The position numbers and the translations under genes were made by a program. The notes beneath the pieces were generated by a model. It made no database searches, was not told where the DNA came from, and worked only from the letters and a program-made list of their open reading frames with translations. From Chalciporus piperatus (taxonomy: Eukaryota; Basidiomycota; Agaricomycetes; Boletales; Boletaceae), in the NCBI GenBank assembly GCA_038093975.1, contig JBBPTG010000004.1:620001-684000 (forward strand): a stretch of DNA of 64,000 bases, in the 5' to 3' direction. Position 1 is the first letter of the stretch; each line of letters opens with the position of its first letter. Positions 1 through 7,285 of this stretch are shown here, piece by piece.

Positions 1-665
1 AGCTTGGTTGGCGTCGTCGAGCTGTCCGGAGCAGTACGCGGTGCCTTGATCAACCCATCGAGAGCCGACGAGTTCGTAAACCTTTGAAGATGATAAGCGT
101 CGGTCAGAACGGGCCCTTGAGATCATGCAAAATGGCGGGAGGGCAACTAGGCAGGAGGGACGCGTAGGGTTTTGAATGAAAAGGAGAGGGGATTGTTACG
201 AGGGAGCTGAACACGTTGCAAGTATGACGTCCCTGCCCGTTATGAAGATGGTGGCAGAGTGGAGGCCGTGTGTGCCTTTTGCCATGGAATGAGGTGGGAT
301 GGACGTGAGAAGCTCACCTTGACACGTTTCAACTCTAATGACGCCTCAGGCGACTGCTGTTGTGAGTCCTGTTGAGTGACAGCCGGGTCTACGGCCTCGA
401 CCATGGTGATGTGGTCATCCTTGACATGGTCACCAACGTGGTCGATGTCGCCAAAGATGTGGTCACGAGAATGCTGGAGCGCCATTTGAACGGGGTCGTT
501 TGACTGAGTGAGACATGCAAGTTCGAGTTCGAGGGCTACCTGATGGCCAGGTGGAGGCAAGTCCGCGTGGTGCGAGGGTGATAACAAGTCATGGTCGAGG
601 ATGTCGGCGTCGGAGTCGTGATTGGACGTAAGAGAAGATGATGGTGGAGCGTCCACGCCGCTCAT
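1..665 (-). CDS. PSY2: PP4 regulatory subunit 3 (PSY2/SMEK), 5' part, runs off the window
   Basis: This is the N-terminal part of the regulatory subunit that targets protein phosphatase 4, which acts in DNA-damage recovery and other nuclear processes. Two exons are visible on the minus strand: 318-665, starting MSGVDAPPSS, and 1-81, which is truncated by the window edge. The intron between them has a GTGAGC donor after codon AAG and an AAAG acceptor, both phase 0. The join reads LKRVKVYELVGSRWVDQGTA, the start of the PH/EVH1-like domain typical of the family. Residues 1-110 before it are low-complexity and acidic. An in-frame GTG six bases upstream of the ATG was not used. The identification rests on the VYEL-GSRWVD-GTA motif only. 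Confidence 0.82.
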
Positions 666-1857
666 GACCACCTAAGACGACCTTTATCTGTGAATTTCGT
701 CCACCAAATCCCTCCAGAAGAAATCCGAGATAGCGCTGAGTGCTGCTTATGAGGCAGTTCTGGTCTAAAGTTGAGTCGTCCTTTCAACGTCAACTCCAAC
801 AACCCGTGAGAACGACCGCCCACTCTCCCCGCCGGAGACATCCGGGACCCGCTCAACGTCGTCCATGATCCTCAACATCACCGACGACCTCTACAATCCA
901 ATGACGAGCCAGGCTGCGTAACTTCAGCTTGATAGCATGCACCATGCATGGCTTGCTATGAAGGGATGTTACGGCAATTCCAAACTATTTCAAGCTGCCG
1001 GCGGGATTAGACCATCTGTGATAGACATCGACGTGCGCTTACCGTGATATACGTCTCGTGTTTGATGTAGATAATTGCGTAGTGTATAGCTCAAGCAGAC
1101 CAAGACGATGTTCTGTTCCGGAAGGGTTTGTGGTAAGCTTTGTGGTACTTGAAGTAGCGGCATCTCCCACCCCACAGATCAAAGCATCGACAACAAGACT
1201 CTCAGTTTCTCTGGCGTTGCTCCCTGCATATTCTCGAAACGAGGCACGGTCCACGTTTGCAACTCTCTATCCAAACGTGTTTCCTGGTCTCGAGATTAGT
1301 TGTCGGTCACCGGTCAATTAAACAAAACCGGCCCAACTTCTAGGCCTCCTATTCCATGTCGGTCAATCACTTACAACAGACTGAAAGTGCTTTCAGTTCG
1401 TGGATTGCCTCGATTTCTGACATGTACAGGTCGGCGATGTATACCTTGTTCAGGGGCTATTGATCACATTCGAACCTACCCTTGCCAAACCCTTGCTTTG
1501 GCTTTCAGTTCCCAAAGGTTGGGTAGATGTTCAAATCTCTTGCCGAGGGTCATCACGGAGTCGGAGGAGACTGCAATTCAGGACGAGTCCAGTACAACAC
1601 CGCAAAAATGGATCGCGCATGGGAAGCGAAGCTAATATTCGTGTCCAAACGGGCATTTTTAAACGCTGGGAACGAAAACTGTTGCCCAAGTACGATTTGA
1701 AGTGTGTCCATGCCGTGACAGTTTGTCCCCGCTCTCCTGTCCCGCGCTGTGAGAATCCTCTTGAATTACGTAATAATTTACGCGAAATACGAATTTTTAT
1801 CCTCTGACGTTGACGCTGTTTCCTCTTGTCTCCCTCTGTCAATCCCTTCGCGTCAAA
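666..1857. other. intergenic region between PSY2 and TOM20
   Basis: About 1.2 kb separates the PSY2 start (minus strand) from the TOM20 start (plus strand). Several overlapping short open frames exist on both strands, none with recognisable motifs or consistent splice structure. It is best read as divergent promoter and 5' UTR sequence. A pyrimidine-rich stretch (TTTCCTCTTGTCTCCCTCTG) lies just before the TOM20 start. Confidence 0.5.
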
Positions 1858-2627
1858 ATGACCAGGTCAACGACAATGTTCACCGTTGCCGGCCTCGCCG
1901 TCAGCGGTCTCGTTGCCTATGCTGTGTACTTTGATTACAGGCGGAGGACAGATGCCAGCTTCCGCAAACGACTTCGTACGTTGCACTTTAGTTCTTGCGC
2001 CAGGAAAGGGCTGAGCAGTTCTGAACTAGGGAAGGACAAGAAGCGCGCCGAAAAGAGCCAGACACCTTCAGAGGCTTCAGCAAGTACCGAGGGTGTCGAT
2101 GCAAATGAGCTCACTGCCGCTTTGGAAAAAATCCGGACTGAGGAGGTTCCTACCGATCAGGACGAGAGACACCAATACTTCATGACGCAGGTCAGCCAGG
2201 GTGAGACGTTAAGCGTGAAAGGTGCGTAGTGAACAATCCGTTTTTATAAGGGCGAGTCACTTACAGGCGACAGGACCTGCATTCTACATGCCCGCCGCAC
2301 TTTGCTTCTACCGAGCAATTCGAGTGTACCCTTCACCGCTGGAATTGATCATGGTCTACGAGAAGAGTCTTTCTCCTCCTGTATTCCAGGTAAGTTTCTT
2401 TGTGTAGCTTGATTCGTTTCGAACATGATCGTTCTGACGCGACCCTCTAGCTTGTCATGCAACTCGTCAACTTGGACGTGAGTTCAGCTCCTTCGTCTTC
2501 CACGAGGGATCCGTATTCGATTCTTGACGATGATGACGAGACGAGCCTCTCCGGCCCGCCCTCGGATGCGTCTTCGCAAGAGTGGGACAAGGTCACGGAC
2601 CCAGGCACTCGGACGCCTGCGATATGA
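1858..2627 (+). CDS. TOM20: mitochondrial import receptor Tom20 (short isoform)
   Basis: Tom20 is the outer-membrane receptor that recognises presequences for the TOM complex. Exons are 1858-1975, 2030-2221, 2274-2389 and 2451-2627 (603 nt, 200 aa). The N-terminus has one membrane anchor (residues about 6-24, FTVAGLAVSGLVAYAVYFDY), followed by a basic, charged linker (KDKKRAEKSQ) and a single TPR-like helical pair around FYMPAALCFYRAIRVYPSP. The C-terminus is acidic and ends SSQEWDKVTDPGTRTPAI, a tail I associate with fungal Tom20. The ATG at 1858 is the first in frame. The last exon contains an internal GTGAGT donor at 2478; using it joins the receptor to the SET-domain coding region downstream, and retaining it gives this short form. 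Confidence 0.9.
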
Positions 2628-4287
2628 CTATGAGTCATCGTACACACGACCTTGGACGTGCAACTCACATTGCTGTACGCTGTATTGTCGTCTGGATTCA
2701 TGTACCCCTCCGACGCTCGCTATCTTCCTTATATTTTTCCTTTGCTCTATTCGTTATCCATGCAATGAACTGATATGAATGTTTTTGCATTTCCGGTTCT
2801 GTCATTGCTGGCTGCGCTTTAACTGTCGCGCTTGACCTTGAACTATTCTGCCCTTAGGTGAAGACGCGTGCTGAAGGTATGCCTTGTCGACCAAGGAACG
2901 AGAACTGCTGAGCTAAAGAATGGTAATAGGCTACTTCGACTGTTTCCCTCGGAAAGAGATGAACGTTGCTGTTCGGAATGCTGAGGTACCTCCGACAGCT
3001 GGTGGGAAACCTACAGGTTCCGCCATGCGCAGGAAAATACTGGTTTGCACAAAGGATTTCCAGCCGGGCGACCTCATTTACAAAGTGAGTATCATCATCT
3101 CTTTACCACGCCGCGTGTCGACCGTTCCAATGACAGGAAGAAGCTATCGCTACTGCTCTTGACCTGGATCTTCAAGGCAAAGGAACACACTGCAGCTACT
3201 GCTTGCGCGTCTTTGAAAAGGAGGACGCGGTCGTCCGCCCCCCTGTGTCGGACCGGTTCAACTCAGTGTACTGCTCCAATGATTGCCATCTCAAAGCCAA
3301 GACATTCTCCCAGAGCTTACTCTTCACACTCGAACCACCCCTGCCGGAACAGTTGATTCCTGAGACGCCCAGCACCTCGGAGCGCGACCATGCTCAGGCT
3401 GCATTCGCAGAGTACCTTCAGAAGACTGGAAAGGCTGCACCTGAGTTGATGGCACGTCTTTTGGCCCGCCAGGTCTCCGTTGAGACGTCGCGAATGCTCA
3501 CCGCCGTGGGACTTGCACCTCCCGTCGATGCCAACCCGGTGCTTACGGACGGCGGTGACTACACGTTCAACGACCATCTCGAGCGGCTTCGCTACATTGA
3601 TGTGACTGCCTCTGAGGACATAGCGAAGATGTTCGCAGCCGTACTCAAACATGCGATTCCTGGACTGGAGCATCTTGCGACGGAAGAACGCCTCTCGGTC
3701 TTCCTTGGTACTATGGTGTACAACGCCTTTGGTGTGTACTTTGGGGAGGGAAGAGATGACAAGGTGAATGCGCAGTCACTCGGTTGTAGACTGTTGCTGA
3801 TGGCGTCGTTCTTTCTCGTAGCCCGTACCAACCGCGAGACCAGAAGATGTGGAGAAGACGCGTACCCCACTCGGTACTCAGAAACAAGTCGGCTCTGCCT
3901 TCTACTTTGTGTCTTCCTACGTACGCATCTTCACACGTCATTTACCTGGATCTGTTATTGACGTGGTTCACACAGCTCACCCACTCTTGTGAACCCTCTG
4001 CTCGCACTTCTTTCAGCAACGGCACGTCCGAACTGCACCTCGTTGCCACCCGTGCTCTCAAAGCAGGCGACGAAGTCACTGTCGCATACGTCGACGTCTC
4101 CCAGCATGAAGGCGAAAGCGTTCAGGATTGTCGTCGCAGGAGACGAATTGAACTGGCGCGAGGCTGGGAATTCGCTTGCCCATGCTCCCGCTGTGCCGCG
4201 GAGGCCAGCCCTGCAGATGAACCCGAGAGTGGGGTTCAAGACAGGTCGAAGGTGTCCGAATCTGCTGCGACGCTCGAGGGAGTGTAA
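1858..4287 (+). CDS. Tom20-SET fusion isoform (SMYD/Set5-like methyltransferase part)
   Basis: If the donor at 2478 is used, the exons are 1858-1975, 2030-2221, 2274-2389, 2451-2477, 2858-2876, 2930-3084, 3137-3763, 3822-3920 and 3976-4287. They total 1665 nt and stay in one frame, giving 554 aa. Residues 1-151 are Tom20. The join reads VNLD-VKTRAEGYFDCFPRKE, and the rest resembles a split SET domain of the SMYD/Set5 type: cysteine pairs CSYC and YCSNDC, the SET core LTHSCEPSARTSF near residue 452, then VAYVDV and the post-SET cysteines CPCSRC. The usual GxG motif at the SET start is not obvious (SAMRRKILVCTKDF stands there), so catalytic activity is uncertain. A separate SET-only transcript starting at the ATG at 2959 is also possible. 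Frame continuity is seen directly; in vivo use of the splice is inferred. Confidence 0.72.
2478..2857 (+). promoter_or_regulatory. alternative intron that decides Tom20 versus Tom20-SET
   Basis: This 380-nt intron has a consensus GTGAGT donor at 2478 and a CCCTTAG acceptor ending at 2857, and is phase 0 at both ends. Its first 150 nt encode the Tom20 C-terminal tail and stop codon (2625-2627). Retention therefore makes normal Tom20, and removal makes the fusion. It is several times longer than the 50-70 nt introns common in this window. Confidence 0.7.
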
Positions 4288-4719
4288 ACACAAAAAGAGG
4301 CTCTTGCTCAACGTGAGGGTTTATTGCTTATTGCAGACTACATATTTGACCGCTCGATTCGCTTGATACAGGTAGAGAATCGCTAGTAGGACTCGTTTTA
4401 ATCACTGAGATCGAGAGATCCGACTCGTCGGTTCATTTTCTTTAATTTCTTTTGCTTCTGCTTTGCCATCTCCACGCTACAAAATACGTTTGGTATCTAG
4501 TTTTCGCTCGCATGTTATATCCACAATCCTCACTCTGCATCTGCATTTGTTTCGCACTTGCGGGGTAATTCATCTCGACTTCCGAGTTTTATAACTGGAC
4601 TGGTGATCAGTGAGATTAGTGATATCGCAGGAAACGTCGCGGTAAGGTCTTGGACAAGTGTTCTTGTGGGATAGGAGCGGAGGCTCCTTCTGTTTTTGGA
4701 GAGCATCTCAGTACTCACC
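4288..4719. other. intergenic region between TOM20-SET and NDUFAF3
   Basis: This stretch of about 430 bp is T-rich and AT-richer than the flanking genes. No open frame with recognisable content was found. It should hold the 3' end of the TOM20-SET transcript and the NDUFAF3 promoter. Confidence 0.5.
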
Positions 4720-5463
4720 ATGAACCCTTCATCGGTCCTCCGTGCGCTACGACGGCCGTACCTAAGTTCACGTATCCAATACCCTCTCTCGTCGACACTC
4801 AAATCATTACACCAGTTTCAACCTCAAAAATGGACACGTCCAATCCATACTAGCTGCGCGTGGTGCGCTCCGGACCGTCCGACGTCCCTCACGAACATGC
4901 TCGCGTCCGAGATCCCTCCTCCTGTGCAGGTCGCTTCTGTCGGGCCCGCTGGCATCAAACTCGCGGACGGGTCAGTGTTTGAGGGCGCGGTGGTATTTTT
5001 GGAGGGAAAGGTCTTTCTGTGGGACGTGCCGAGTGTACTAGGGTCCGGGAGGGGTGCATGGGAGGAATGGAAGAAAGAGCACTGGGAGATCTTCGAGGTC
5101 GTTGTTCCGAAGCCAGGTATGCTTGTGTTCAGTACTAGTGGTCTGGTTCTGCCCGTGGACTAGCTAACTAGTTCACTTGGCTGAATCCCAGAAATTCTGA
5201 TTTTTGGAACTGGCGCGAGGATGGAACTCGTGCCGAGTAGTGTTCGAGCACATATGAAGGAGTTGGGGATACAGATGGACGTTATGGATACGGTAGGTGT
5301 CTCCCTCAGGCTCAGTCTTCGACGCTTGACGTGACACCTTTTGTCGCATATTCAGAAGAATGCATGTTCGACGTATAATCTGTTAGCCGAGGAAGGTCGA
5401 CGTGTGGCTGCTGCACTCCTTCCTATCGAGCCCAAGAAATGGACGAAGAAAGAAGGGTGGTGA
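4720..5463 (+). CDS. NDUFAF3: complex I assembly factor NDUFAF3 (Mth938/DUF498 domain)
   Basis: NDUFAF3 is a mitochondrial matrix protein needed for early assembly of respiratory complex I. Exons are 4720-5116, 5192-5292 and 5356-5463 (606 nt, 201 aa). The N-terminus is a basic, Ser/Arg-rich presequence (MNPSSVLRALRRPYLSSRIQ), followed by linker and the Mth938-like fold. The diagnostic segments are EILIFGTGARMELVPSSVR, then GIQMDVMDT joined across the last intron to KNACSTYNLLAEEGRRVAAA. Length fits fungal homologues with a presequence. Both introns keep frame (phase 1, then phase 0) with GTATGC and GTAGGT donors. The neighbours NDUFA8 and NDUFA1 also belong to complex I. Confidence 0.9.
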
Positions 5464-5658
5464 TACTCTCATGAGACCACGACCTCTTGTTTCGTGACCA
5501 CCACACGGTCGAACCGCCAAAATCTTCATCATATCCACCGACGAATTATCCAGCGAACCTCACGACGCAGCTAAGCTTAATGTACAGTACCACGTATCTC
5601 ACTGATCATAATACAAGCATCACCCCTCCTATCTAAAGGAAAGATCAAGAGTTGTGCG

Positions 5659-6399
5659 TCACTCTGGTGGAGCCTTTCGTTTCCCCTTTCCGACTGCCAC
5701 GGGTGATTCTGGTAGCTGGGGTGCTCGACGCGGCTCGTCCTCCTCCTCATCCAGAAGTGAAGGTTGGGAGACCTCAACAGGGAGGAGATTGCCTACACAT
5801 GGAAAGTTTGGTCAGAAAACGTTGGCCGGAGACACAACTACCTTTACCATCCTCATCTCTGAACTGGATATAAAGCGTCTCCCAGTTGCTGAACAATCCT
5901 TTGATCGGCGATGACGTGTTCAACGTCTCGTAGGACGTAGGCACAGACGACGCCGCGTTAGATTTACCCTTGTCCTTTACCGCCCGACATAGCTCAAAGT
6001 CCTCGAGTGAGTGTATGCGTGGAACCTCTGAACCACCCCCTTCCTCTTCGTCCATCGTCTCGTCATCCTCTCCGGGGGCAGTCGGAATACGGGGAACACC
6101 TGATGCTGATGTGAGGACGGCCGACGTAAGTGCTGACAGTGCTTCCTCCTTTAGTTGCGCGACCGTCAAGGACTGGTGGACGGTGAGGAAGATGGTGAGT
6201 TTGTGTGTCTTGAGGAGCAATTGGTATGCCTTTGGTGGTGCTCGAGGGGGCTGTACGTAGTATTTTCATGACCGCTGTCATACATTGGGGATCTACTCGA
6301 CTCACCATCGTGTCTGTAACGCGTCGATGCTCCTGGTAAGTTACTACTTAAGGAGGAGCGCGTCCGTTCTCTAAATAAATCGTGAGAATCACTTTCCAT
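5659..6399 (-). CDS. small conserved-looking protein with a ubiquitin-like N-terminus
   Basis: I do not recognise a named family. The model is exons 6306-6399, 5848-6240 and 5659-5792 on the minus strand (621 nt, 206 aa). The first intron needs the acceptor CCCTCGAG rather than the CAG ten bases before it, because only that keeps frame. Residues about 34-70 (KAYQLLLKTHKLTIFLTVHQ and onward, with AQLKEEALSAL) look like the beta-beta-alpha start of a ubiquitin-like fold. An acidic linker and a basic tail ending KGKRKAPPE follow. It is divergent from NDUFA8, with 72 bp between start codons. The function is unknown; the fold is inferred from pattern only. Confidence 0.65.
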
Positions 6400-6471
6400 T
6401 CTCGTCGGCTAGCTTCCCGATCTCCTCCAACCCGACGTTGGCCAAGTTCACGCGGAAAAACAGCAGGAAAG
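6400..6471. promoter_or_regulatory. 72-bp divergent promoter, ubiquitin-like gene / NDUFA8
   Basis: Only 72 bp separate the two ATG codons (6399 minus, 6472 plus), so the genes must share a compact bidirectional promoter or have start sites inside each other. No TATA box is evident. Confidence 0.5.
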
Positions 6472-7285
6472 ATGGGTGTATTCCGCAACAGCGCATCCTC
6501 TTCAAACCCCTACGTAGACCCTACACCACTCCCGGACGATATTCCAAAGGTCCAGGAGTTGGGTGCGACGAGTGCACCTCTCAAGAGCGCTGCCTTTTTC
6601 GTTGGAGCGTACTGCAAGGAGTACAATGGTGAGCCTGTTGGCATGAGCGTCCTGCTAACAGTATGCTGAAGGAGTCCCCACGGTTGCTGCTGGCGCATCA
6701 CCACTACTGTCGTCGGTAATGACTTCTCTACGGCCATAATTGGTACTCGGTCTTCCCTTCGAAACTCAGAGGACTTTATGCTTTGCAAGAACGAGGCTGG
6801 TGCTGACGTTGGACGGTGTTTGAAGGAAGGTCGGCGAGTAACACGGTGCGCTACTGACTTGTAAGTTCTCCACTCCTCGCGCTTGCCAAAGCAACGCTTG
6901 TGTCTCACTTGACACCCACGGACGTGTACTGAATCACAAACCTGATTAGGATCAACAAGATGCGCGAGAACTGCTTGGAGCAGTTCGAAACGCACTGGAA
7001 CTGTCTAGAGATGAACAACCATGTGGGTTCTCTTGCTTAGCTTTCTGGGCGAATCGTCTCATCCTGTCGTCTACAGGAATACTACGCGTGCCGAAAACCA
7101 GAACGTGCTCTTAACAAGTGCATGTTCGAGAAGCTCGTACGTTCGCCATAGTCTGAAGTTGATCGTTCTCATTTGTAATGTCATGTGTTGTATAGGGCCT
7201 CGTCAAGACGATTCCTGGATCTCCTGCAGGTCAAAAGCAGATGCACGAGGTCGAGAACCCTATATATACCACCCTCCAGCGGTAG
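6472..7285 (+). CDS. NDUFA8: NADH dehydrogenase 1 alpha subcomplex subunit 8 (NDUFA8, CHCH protein)
   Basis: NDUFA8 is an accessory subunit of complex I with twin CHCH motifs, facing the intermembrane space. Exons are 6472-6628, 6770-6860, 6950-7022, 7077-7136 and 7196-7285 (471 nt, 156 aa). The cysteine pattern is clear: FFVGAYCKEYN-EDFMLCKNE, GRCLKEGRRVTRC, MRENCLEQFETHWNCLE and YYACRKPERALNKCMFEK. The C-terminus ends NPIYTTLQR. The first intron is 141 nt, long for this genome; the alternative acceptor at its 5' half would break the conserved N-E-D-F junction. Oxidative folding of CHCH proteins in the intermembrane space depends on Erv1, encoded by the next gene. Confidence 0.92.

Follow-up and report, generated by a model that had tools for sequence, protein, structure and literature searches.

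Two alternative 3' ends at the one Tom20 locus found in Chalciporus piperatus probably specify an ordinary import receptor and a Tom20-SMYD-like fusion

Tom20 serves as a general receptor in mitochondrial import. In the window, by which we mean the whole 64,000-nucleotide stretch of Chalciporus piperatus DNA that was analysed, we found a Tom20 gene that can be read to either of two ends, and we consider it likely, with a probability of roughly 0.78, that this gene, the only Tom20 found in the genome, uses a single promoter and two ways of processing its fourth intron to give rise to two proteins, that the arrangement is old, and that the longer protein bears a SMYD-like attachment. The shorter protein, Tom20-S (200 aa), would be a plain import receptor that ends in the conserved acidic SSQEWD tail, and would arise when intron 4 is left unspliced, whether it is retained or the RNA is cleaved and polyadenylated within it. 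The longer protein, Tom20-L (554 aa), would arise when position 2477 is joined to position 2858, and in it the last Tom20 helix would run into a SMYD-like split-SET module. Removal of intron 4 would thus swap the acidic tail for this module by way of a continuous helix. We infer that the promoter, like the anchor and the receptor domain, would be common to Tom20-S and Tom20-L and that the module would face the cytosol on the outer membrane.

The fusion open reading frame was rebuilt from its exons, and the nine exons, all on the + strand within 1858-4287, added up to 1665 nt in a single frame encoding 554 aa plus the stop, with all eight introns of the GT...AG type. The coordinates, the 19-nt exon and the 1665-nt frame given by an earlier, sequence-only reading of this DNA were therefore confirmed. 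Exon 1 (1858..1975) holds the start codon and encodes the N-terminal membrane anchor of Tom20, a putative assignment that we base on a visibly hydrophobic N-terminus with basic residues next to it; exon 2 (2030..2221) encodes the linker and receptor domain, and exon 3 (2274..2389) encodes receptor domain. In its fusion version, exon 4 (2451..2477) encodes LVMQLVNLD, the last Tom20 helix as far as the donor, and in its short version (2451..2627) the same residues are followed by the acidic SSQEWDKVTDPG tail and the stop codon TGA at 2625-2627. Exon 5 (2858..2876), the 19-nt exon, encodes VKTRAE plus the first base of the following codon and extends the last Tom20 helix. The SMYD-like module begins in exon 6 (2930..3084), where the ATG at 2959 is the first Met codon past the junction; exon 7 (3137..3763) carries the CxxC...YCSxDC zinc site and the SET-I helices, exon 8 (3822..3920) the RPEDVEKTRTPLGTQKQVG segment, and exon 9 (3976..4287) the THSC motif, TVAYVDV (with the Tyr that aligns to SMYD3 Y239), the CPCSRC post-SET zinc site and the stop.

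Intron 4 (2478..2857, + strand) has the donor GAC/GTGAGT at 2478 and the acceptor CCCTTAG/GTGAAG, with its last base at 2857 (here and below, a slash marks the splice point). It is 380 nt long, compared to 52-61 nt for the other seven introns of the gene, because the tail of Tom20 lies in it, together with the stop codon and 230 nt of prospective 3' UTR. When read unspliced through 2478, the frame continues as V-S-S-A-P-... to the TGA and yields a 200-aa Tom20 in which Pfam finds MAS20 alone, so the proposal that the unspliced intron supplies an ordinary Tom20 tail and stop was borne out. The donor had also been placed eight codons before the acidic tail; the acidic, SSQEWD-bearing part does lie farther on, but the tail itself begins at the donor. 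An Rfam scan of positions 1-6500 gave no RNA element at gathering scores, and a promoter scan of 2478-2900 gave no match, although the latter is of the bacterial type and so carries no weight for a fungus. A second, weak in-frame GT lies within the tail (AAG/GTCACG, with the GT hexamer at 2592..2597, + strand). The models of at least 10 relatives, including P0003, P0007, P0008, P0075 and P0088, join SSQEWDK (or SSQDWD followed by R or K) directly to the exon-5 peptide at this second GT; such models represent either a third form or a habit of the predictor. At the left end of the window there is a minus-strand open reading frame (240-671, 143 aa).

A Pfam scan of the fusion detected MAS20 (PF02064; E 2.1e-39) and SET (E 1.6e-8), with the Tom20 part in the first ~150 residues and the SET domain in the remainder. 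The window's proteins exceeded the MAS20 cut-off of 27 bits, the fusion scoring 135 and the short form 137.7. With the NCBIfam Tom20 model TIGR00985, relative P0001 scored 115 bits, below the cut-off of 163.55. A search of the assembly (35.5 Mb, 484 contigs) revealed neither another Tom20 nor another full copy of the SET half, which had weak matches at two other places (E 9.7e-6 and 2.5e-5), and the SET-family matches of the genome came to 12, one of them being this locus. Since this was the only Tom20 gene found, the choice made at intron 4 would determine which import receptors the cell has and in what proportion.

The 64-kb window contains 30 copies of the hexamer GTGAGT on its + strand, so the donor alone proves nothing and support must come from conservation in relatives. 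A search for fusion proteins returned 159, and 118 of the 120 listed carried both domains according to a precomputed Pfam column; the length filter of this search excludes short forms, and the number is therefore not comparable to those for short forms given below. The species-named proteins among the listed matches appear to be Agaricomycetes, taxonomy having been looked up for five names in all, and fusions occur in Cantharellus (P0282) and Botryobasidium (P0113), both Cantharellales. Being wide in Agaricomycetes, Cantharellales included, the fusion arrangement is, to judge from these proteins, old. The spacing across the junction, mostly D/VKxRVEGYY, was identical in 83 of the 84 sequences matched by a pattern that allowed spacings of 17-21, which leaves tail-keeping models and odd splices uncounted, and the 332 sequences examined include many Tom20-only or SET-only proteins. 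As with all motif and junction counts here, these refer to matched rows only, since sequences failing a pattern drop out. The exon-5 peptide was conserved and had Met at its first residue in only 3 of 83, and in the predicted structure of relative P0001 a single helix crosses the junction. A lack of donor and frame conservation in relatives was one of the refuting conditions set by the sequence-only reading; at the protein level, with the donor deduced from the protein letters, the proposal was not refuted.

The tail encoded inside intron 4 was present in 53 proteins, the window's own among them, a set that mixes short Tom20 models with fusion models keeping part of the intron. The tail started with V-S in 48 of the 53, with V-A in two from Wallemia, and could not be aligned at its start in the other three; a GTNAGY donor would encode V-S, matching this tail start. 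The next residues were variable and were followed by a strongly conserved block, PPSExSSQEWDKVTDPG. The tail was found in Serendipita (Sebacinales) and Tulasnella too. Outside Agaricomycetes, the sole lineage giving a view of it was Wallemia (class Wallemiomycetes), whose Tom20 has a version of the tail motif, no V-S, and no SET in the model. To judge from the protein letters, then, a block of the intron is conserved as protein and the donor lies on two constant residues, as would be expected of a sequence that has to serve both ways. These comparisons support a single locus whose two 3' ends exclude each other, with a common N-terminal anchor and a frame-preserving junction, wide in Agaricomycetes.

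Proteins from short contigs bear on whether both forms are made. Among 22 that were picked by hand and are not all independent (P0144 duplicates part of P0121), six had the fusion junction, eight had the tail and eight had neither. Their frames were continuous across the gene's intron sites, with the exception of the tail form P0173, which appears to keep intron 3, and these contigs are therefore probably transcripts. The short form P0121, on a 1947-nt contig, matches P0010, a fusion model of Pisolithus microcarpus, at all but 1 of 145 residues, and the two diverge exactly at the donor (DVSSPSS versus DVKERVE). SET-only frames were found on contigs of ~2.1-2.3 kb (P0226, P0228, P0254 and P0255), so transcripts that keep intron 4, or start inside it, may exist. 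Among 120 listed of 220 matches, no SET frame was found on contigs sized like those of the short Tom20 forms (1947, 2580, 1378 nt etc.), as a two-frame transcript would require. P0137 and P0263, both on 2461-nt contigs, were considered as one such transcript and rejected: P0137 is of the fusion type and ends just past the first SET strand, which fits retention of a later intron. By extension from the relatives, both RNAs would be made in C. piperatus as well. The idea that one intron decides between two products thus held as to the two 3' ends, the common anchor and the conserved junction, but the short form may arise by polyadenylation inside intron 4 instead of by plain retention. Overall, the dual-product reading is well supported by comparison among relatives.

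An alternative is that Tom20 and a separate SET gene lie side by side and that the fusion is a gene-caller artefact or a minor readthrough product, as in the polycistronic transcripts of Agaricomycetes documented in the excerpted text of PMC4503453. Five species, Pleurotus djamor (g4894/g4893), Meripilus lineatus, Termitomyces sp. T32, Arthromyces matolae and Tephrocybe rancida, carry annotations that divide the locus into two adjacently numbered genes, over-joined models do exist (those of four relatives continue into the next gene), and the contigs with SET-only frames are big enough for a two-frame transcript. Close behind the junction, 54 of 76 fusions have a Met, as the window does at 2959, and a separately started SET protein is therefore possible there. 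In Schizophyllum (P0291 and P0292) and in P0228 the exon-5 peptide itself begins with Met (DLD/MTSKIEG in P0292; MTSKIEG and MTSRVEG in the others), so that translation of the downstream half could begin right at the acceptor. We nevertheless regard two separate genes as unlikely, because the exon-5 peptide and the junction spacing are conserved with Met so rarely at the first position, 16 of the 76 fusions are without any Met before the first SET strand, the junction is present in 6 of the 22 short-contig proteins, and the single predicted helix of relative P0001 spans it. The other alternative, that the fusion is the only functional product, with the intron-4 tail a pre-fusion leftover and short transcripts unspliced noise, could draw on the tail motif in Wallemia, outside the class, which makes the tail plausibly older than the fusion, and on the very many species with annotated fusion models (from a search whose length filter excludes short forms), but it is very improbable, since a tail block and V-S kept across Agaricomycetes, Serendipita and Tulasnella included, are hard to square with a dead intron and the short form occurs on short contigs with a frame unbroken across introns 1-3.

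We then asked what the module attached to Tom20-L may be. It had been called lysine-methyltransferase-like, and the SMYD-like predicted fold of the module of relative P0001, with the split SET core present, and the Tyr retained in the window agree with this, but other hallmarks do not. GxG at the N-SET start was found in 0 of 168 rows within an eight-residue stretch about the point where the first SET strand begins, a position placed by eye, as was that of F183; glycines farther upstream in some rows (Suillus) fall outside this stretch. The Pfam SET match in the window's fusion starts only at profile position 4. The Asn of NHSC was kept in 20 of 167 rows, the window's protein having Thr there, and the position aligned to SMYD3 Y239 was Tyr in 112 and F or W in 55, so that neither residue holds as a family feature of the module. 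In the excerpts of PMC1524980 and PMC3136521, the Y239F change is reported to abolish SMYD3 activity. The best structural match of the P0001 model ends at SMYD2 residue 277, which is residue 533 of 553 in the model and leaves no room for the C-terminal helical (TPR-like) domain of SMYD proteins; this domain was absent from the P0001 model compared to SMYD2. The MYND-type cysteines, CxxC and YCSxxC, were conserved, yet no Pfam zf-MYND match was obtained at E up to 1. From these residues, the label of lysine methyltransferase appears doubtful and the module may have lost the usual chemistry; we lean towards a module that is stabilised by zinc and serves the receptor in binding or regulation, over a classical SAM-dependent lysine methyltransferase. 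Against a non-enzyme stand the Tyr kept in the window and in 112 of 167 rows, the HSC His, invariant in a 50-row alignment, and the pattern of post-SET cysteines, which 161 of 167 rows show; the pattern behind the 167-row counts itself requires the HSC His and Cys and is uninformative on those two residues.

Compared to Chaetomium Tom20 (PDB 9i7s), Tom20-L would go on into the SET module and be without the acidic tail. Compared to SMYD2 and SMYD3, its module is without GxG, has a variable Asn and catalytic Tyr, and is without the C-terminal helical domain, with Tom20 at the N-terminal side instead. The excerpted text of PMC9692433 describes 'Group 25' fungal SET genes with a MAS20 domain upstream of SET, none identified from Ascomycota, and the MAS20-SET fusion architecture is therefore already known. 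The window's fusion has the same architecture, MAS20 upstream of SET in one protein, as members of Group 25, Cluster 3, compared by domain order. That excerpt gives domain order alone and mentions neither a locus common with plain Tom20, nor a pair of 3' ends, nor degeneration of the catalytic residues. The transcripts in the excerpt of PMC4503453 resemble this locus in having two neighbouring coding units per RNA in the same fungal class; there, stops in all frames separate the reading frames, whereas splicing unites them in a single frame here. Neither Tom20 nor MAS20 is mentioned in the main texts of PMC4503453 and PMC11590231, and among the papers listed by literature searches there was no report of a fungal two-product Tom20 locus, a tail conserved inside an intron, or loss of these catalytic residues.

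The next gene downstream (4720-5463, + strand), with three exons read by eye, encodes a protein of the DUF498 family (PF04430), which includes the complex I assembly factor NDUFAF3. The models of relatives P0014, P0016, P0021 and P0026 run Tom20, SET and DUF498 together, and the three are therefore probably neighbours there too. In Botryobasidium botryosum, the P0113 model continues past the SET half into a piece of HSP70, which suggests that the model is over-joined and that an HSP70 gene lies next to the locus. In databases, 'import receptor subunit TOM20' is the name of some SET-half proteins, and the fusion P0087 is called a 'transcription factor', labels that fit one part of the fusion or none of it; for this locus, 'SET domain protein' and 'TOM20' each cover only half.

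Tentatively, Tom20-L can be pictured as a second Tom20 under splice control, whose presequence-receptor domain would stand in for the missing SMYD C-terminal domain. Precursors docking at the outer membrane would be shown to the SMYD-like module, which may be a pseudo-enzyme, and the degree to which intron 4 is spliced would tune the import gate; we hold this as a speculative possibility. The module would offer a natural series of SET domains in which the fold is kept and catalytic residues are lost. Much of a fungal class seems to have attached a SMYD-like module to Tom20 and, by means of one intron, to have preserved the plain receptor as well, and regulation of import by splicing would be directly testable in tractable mushrooms.
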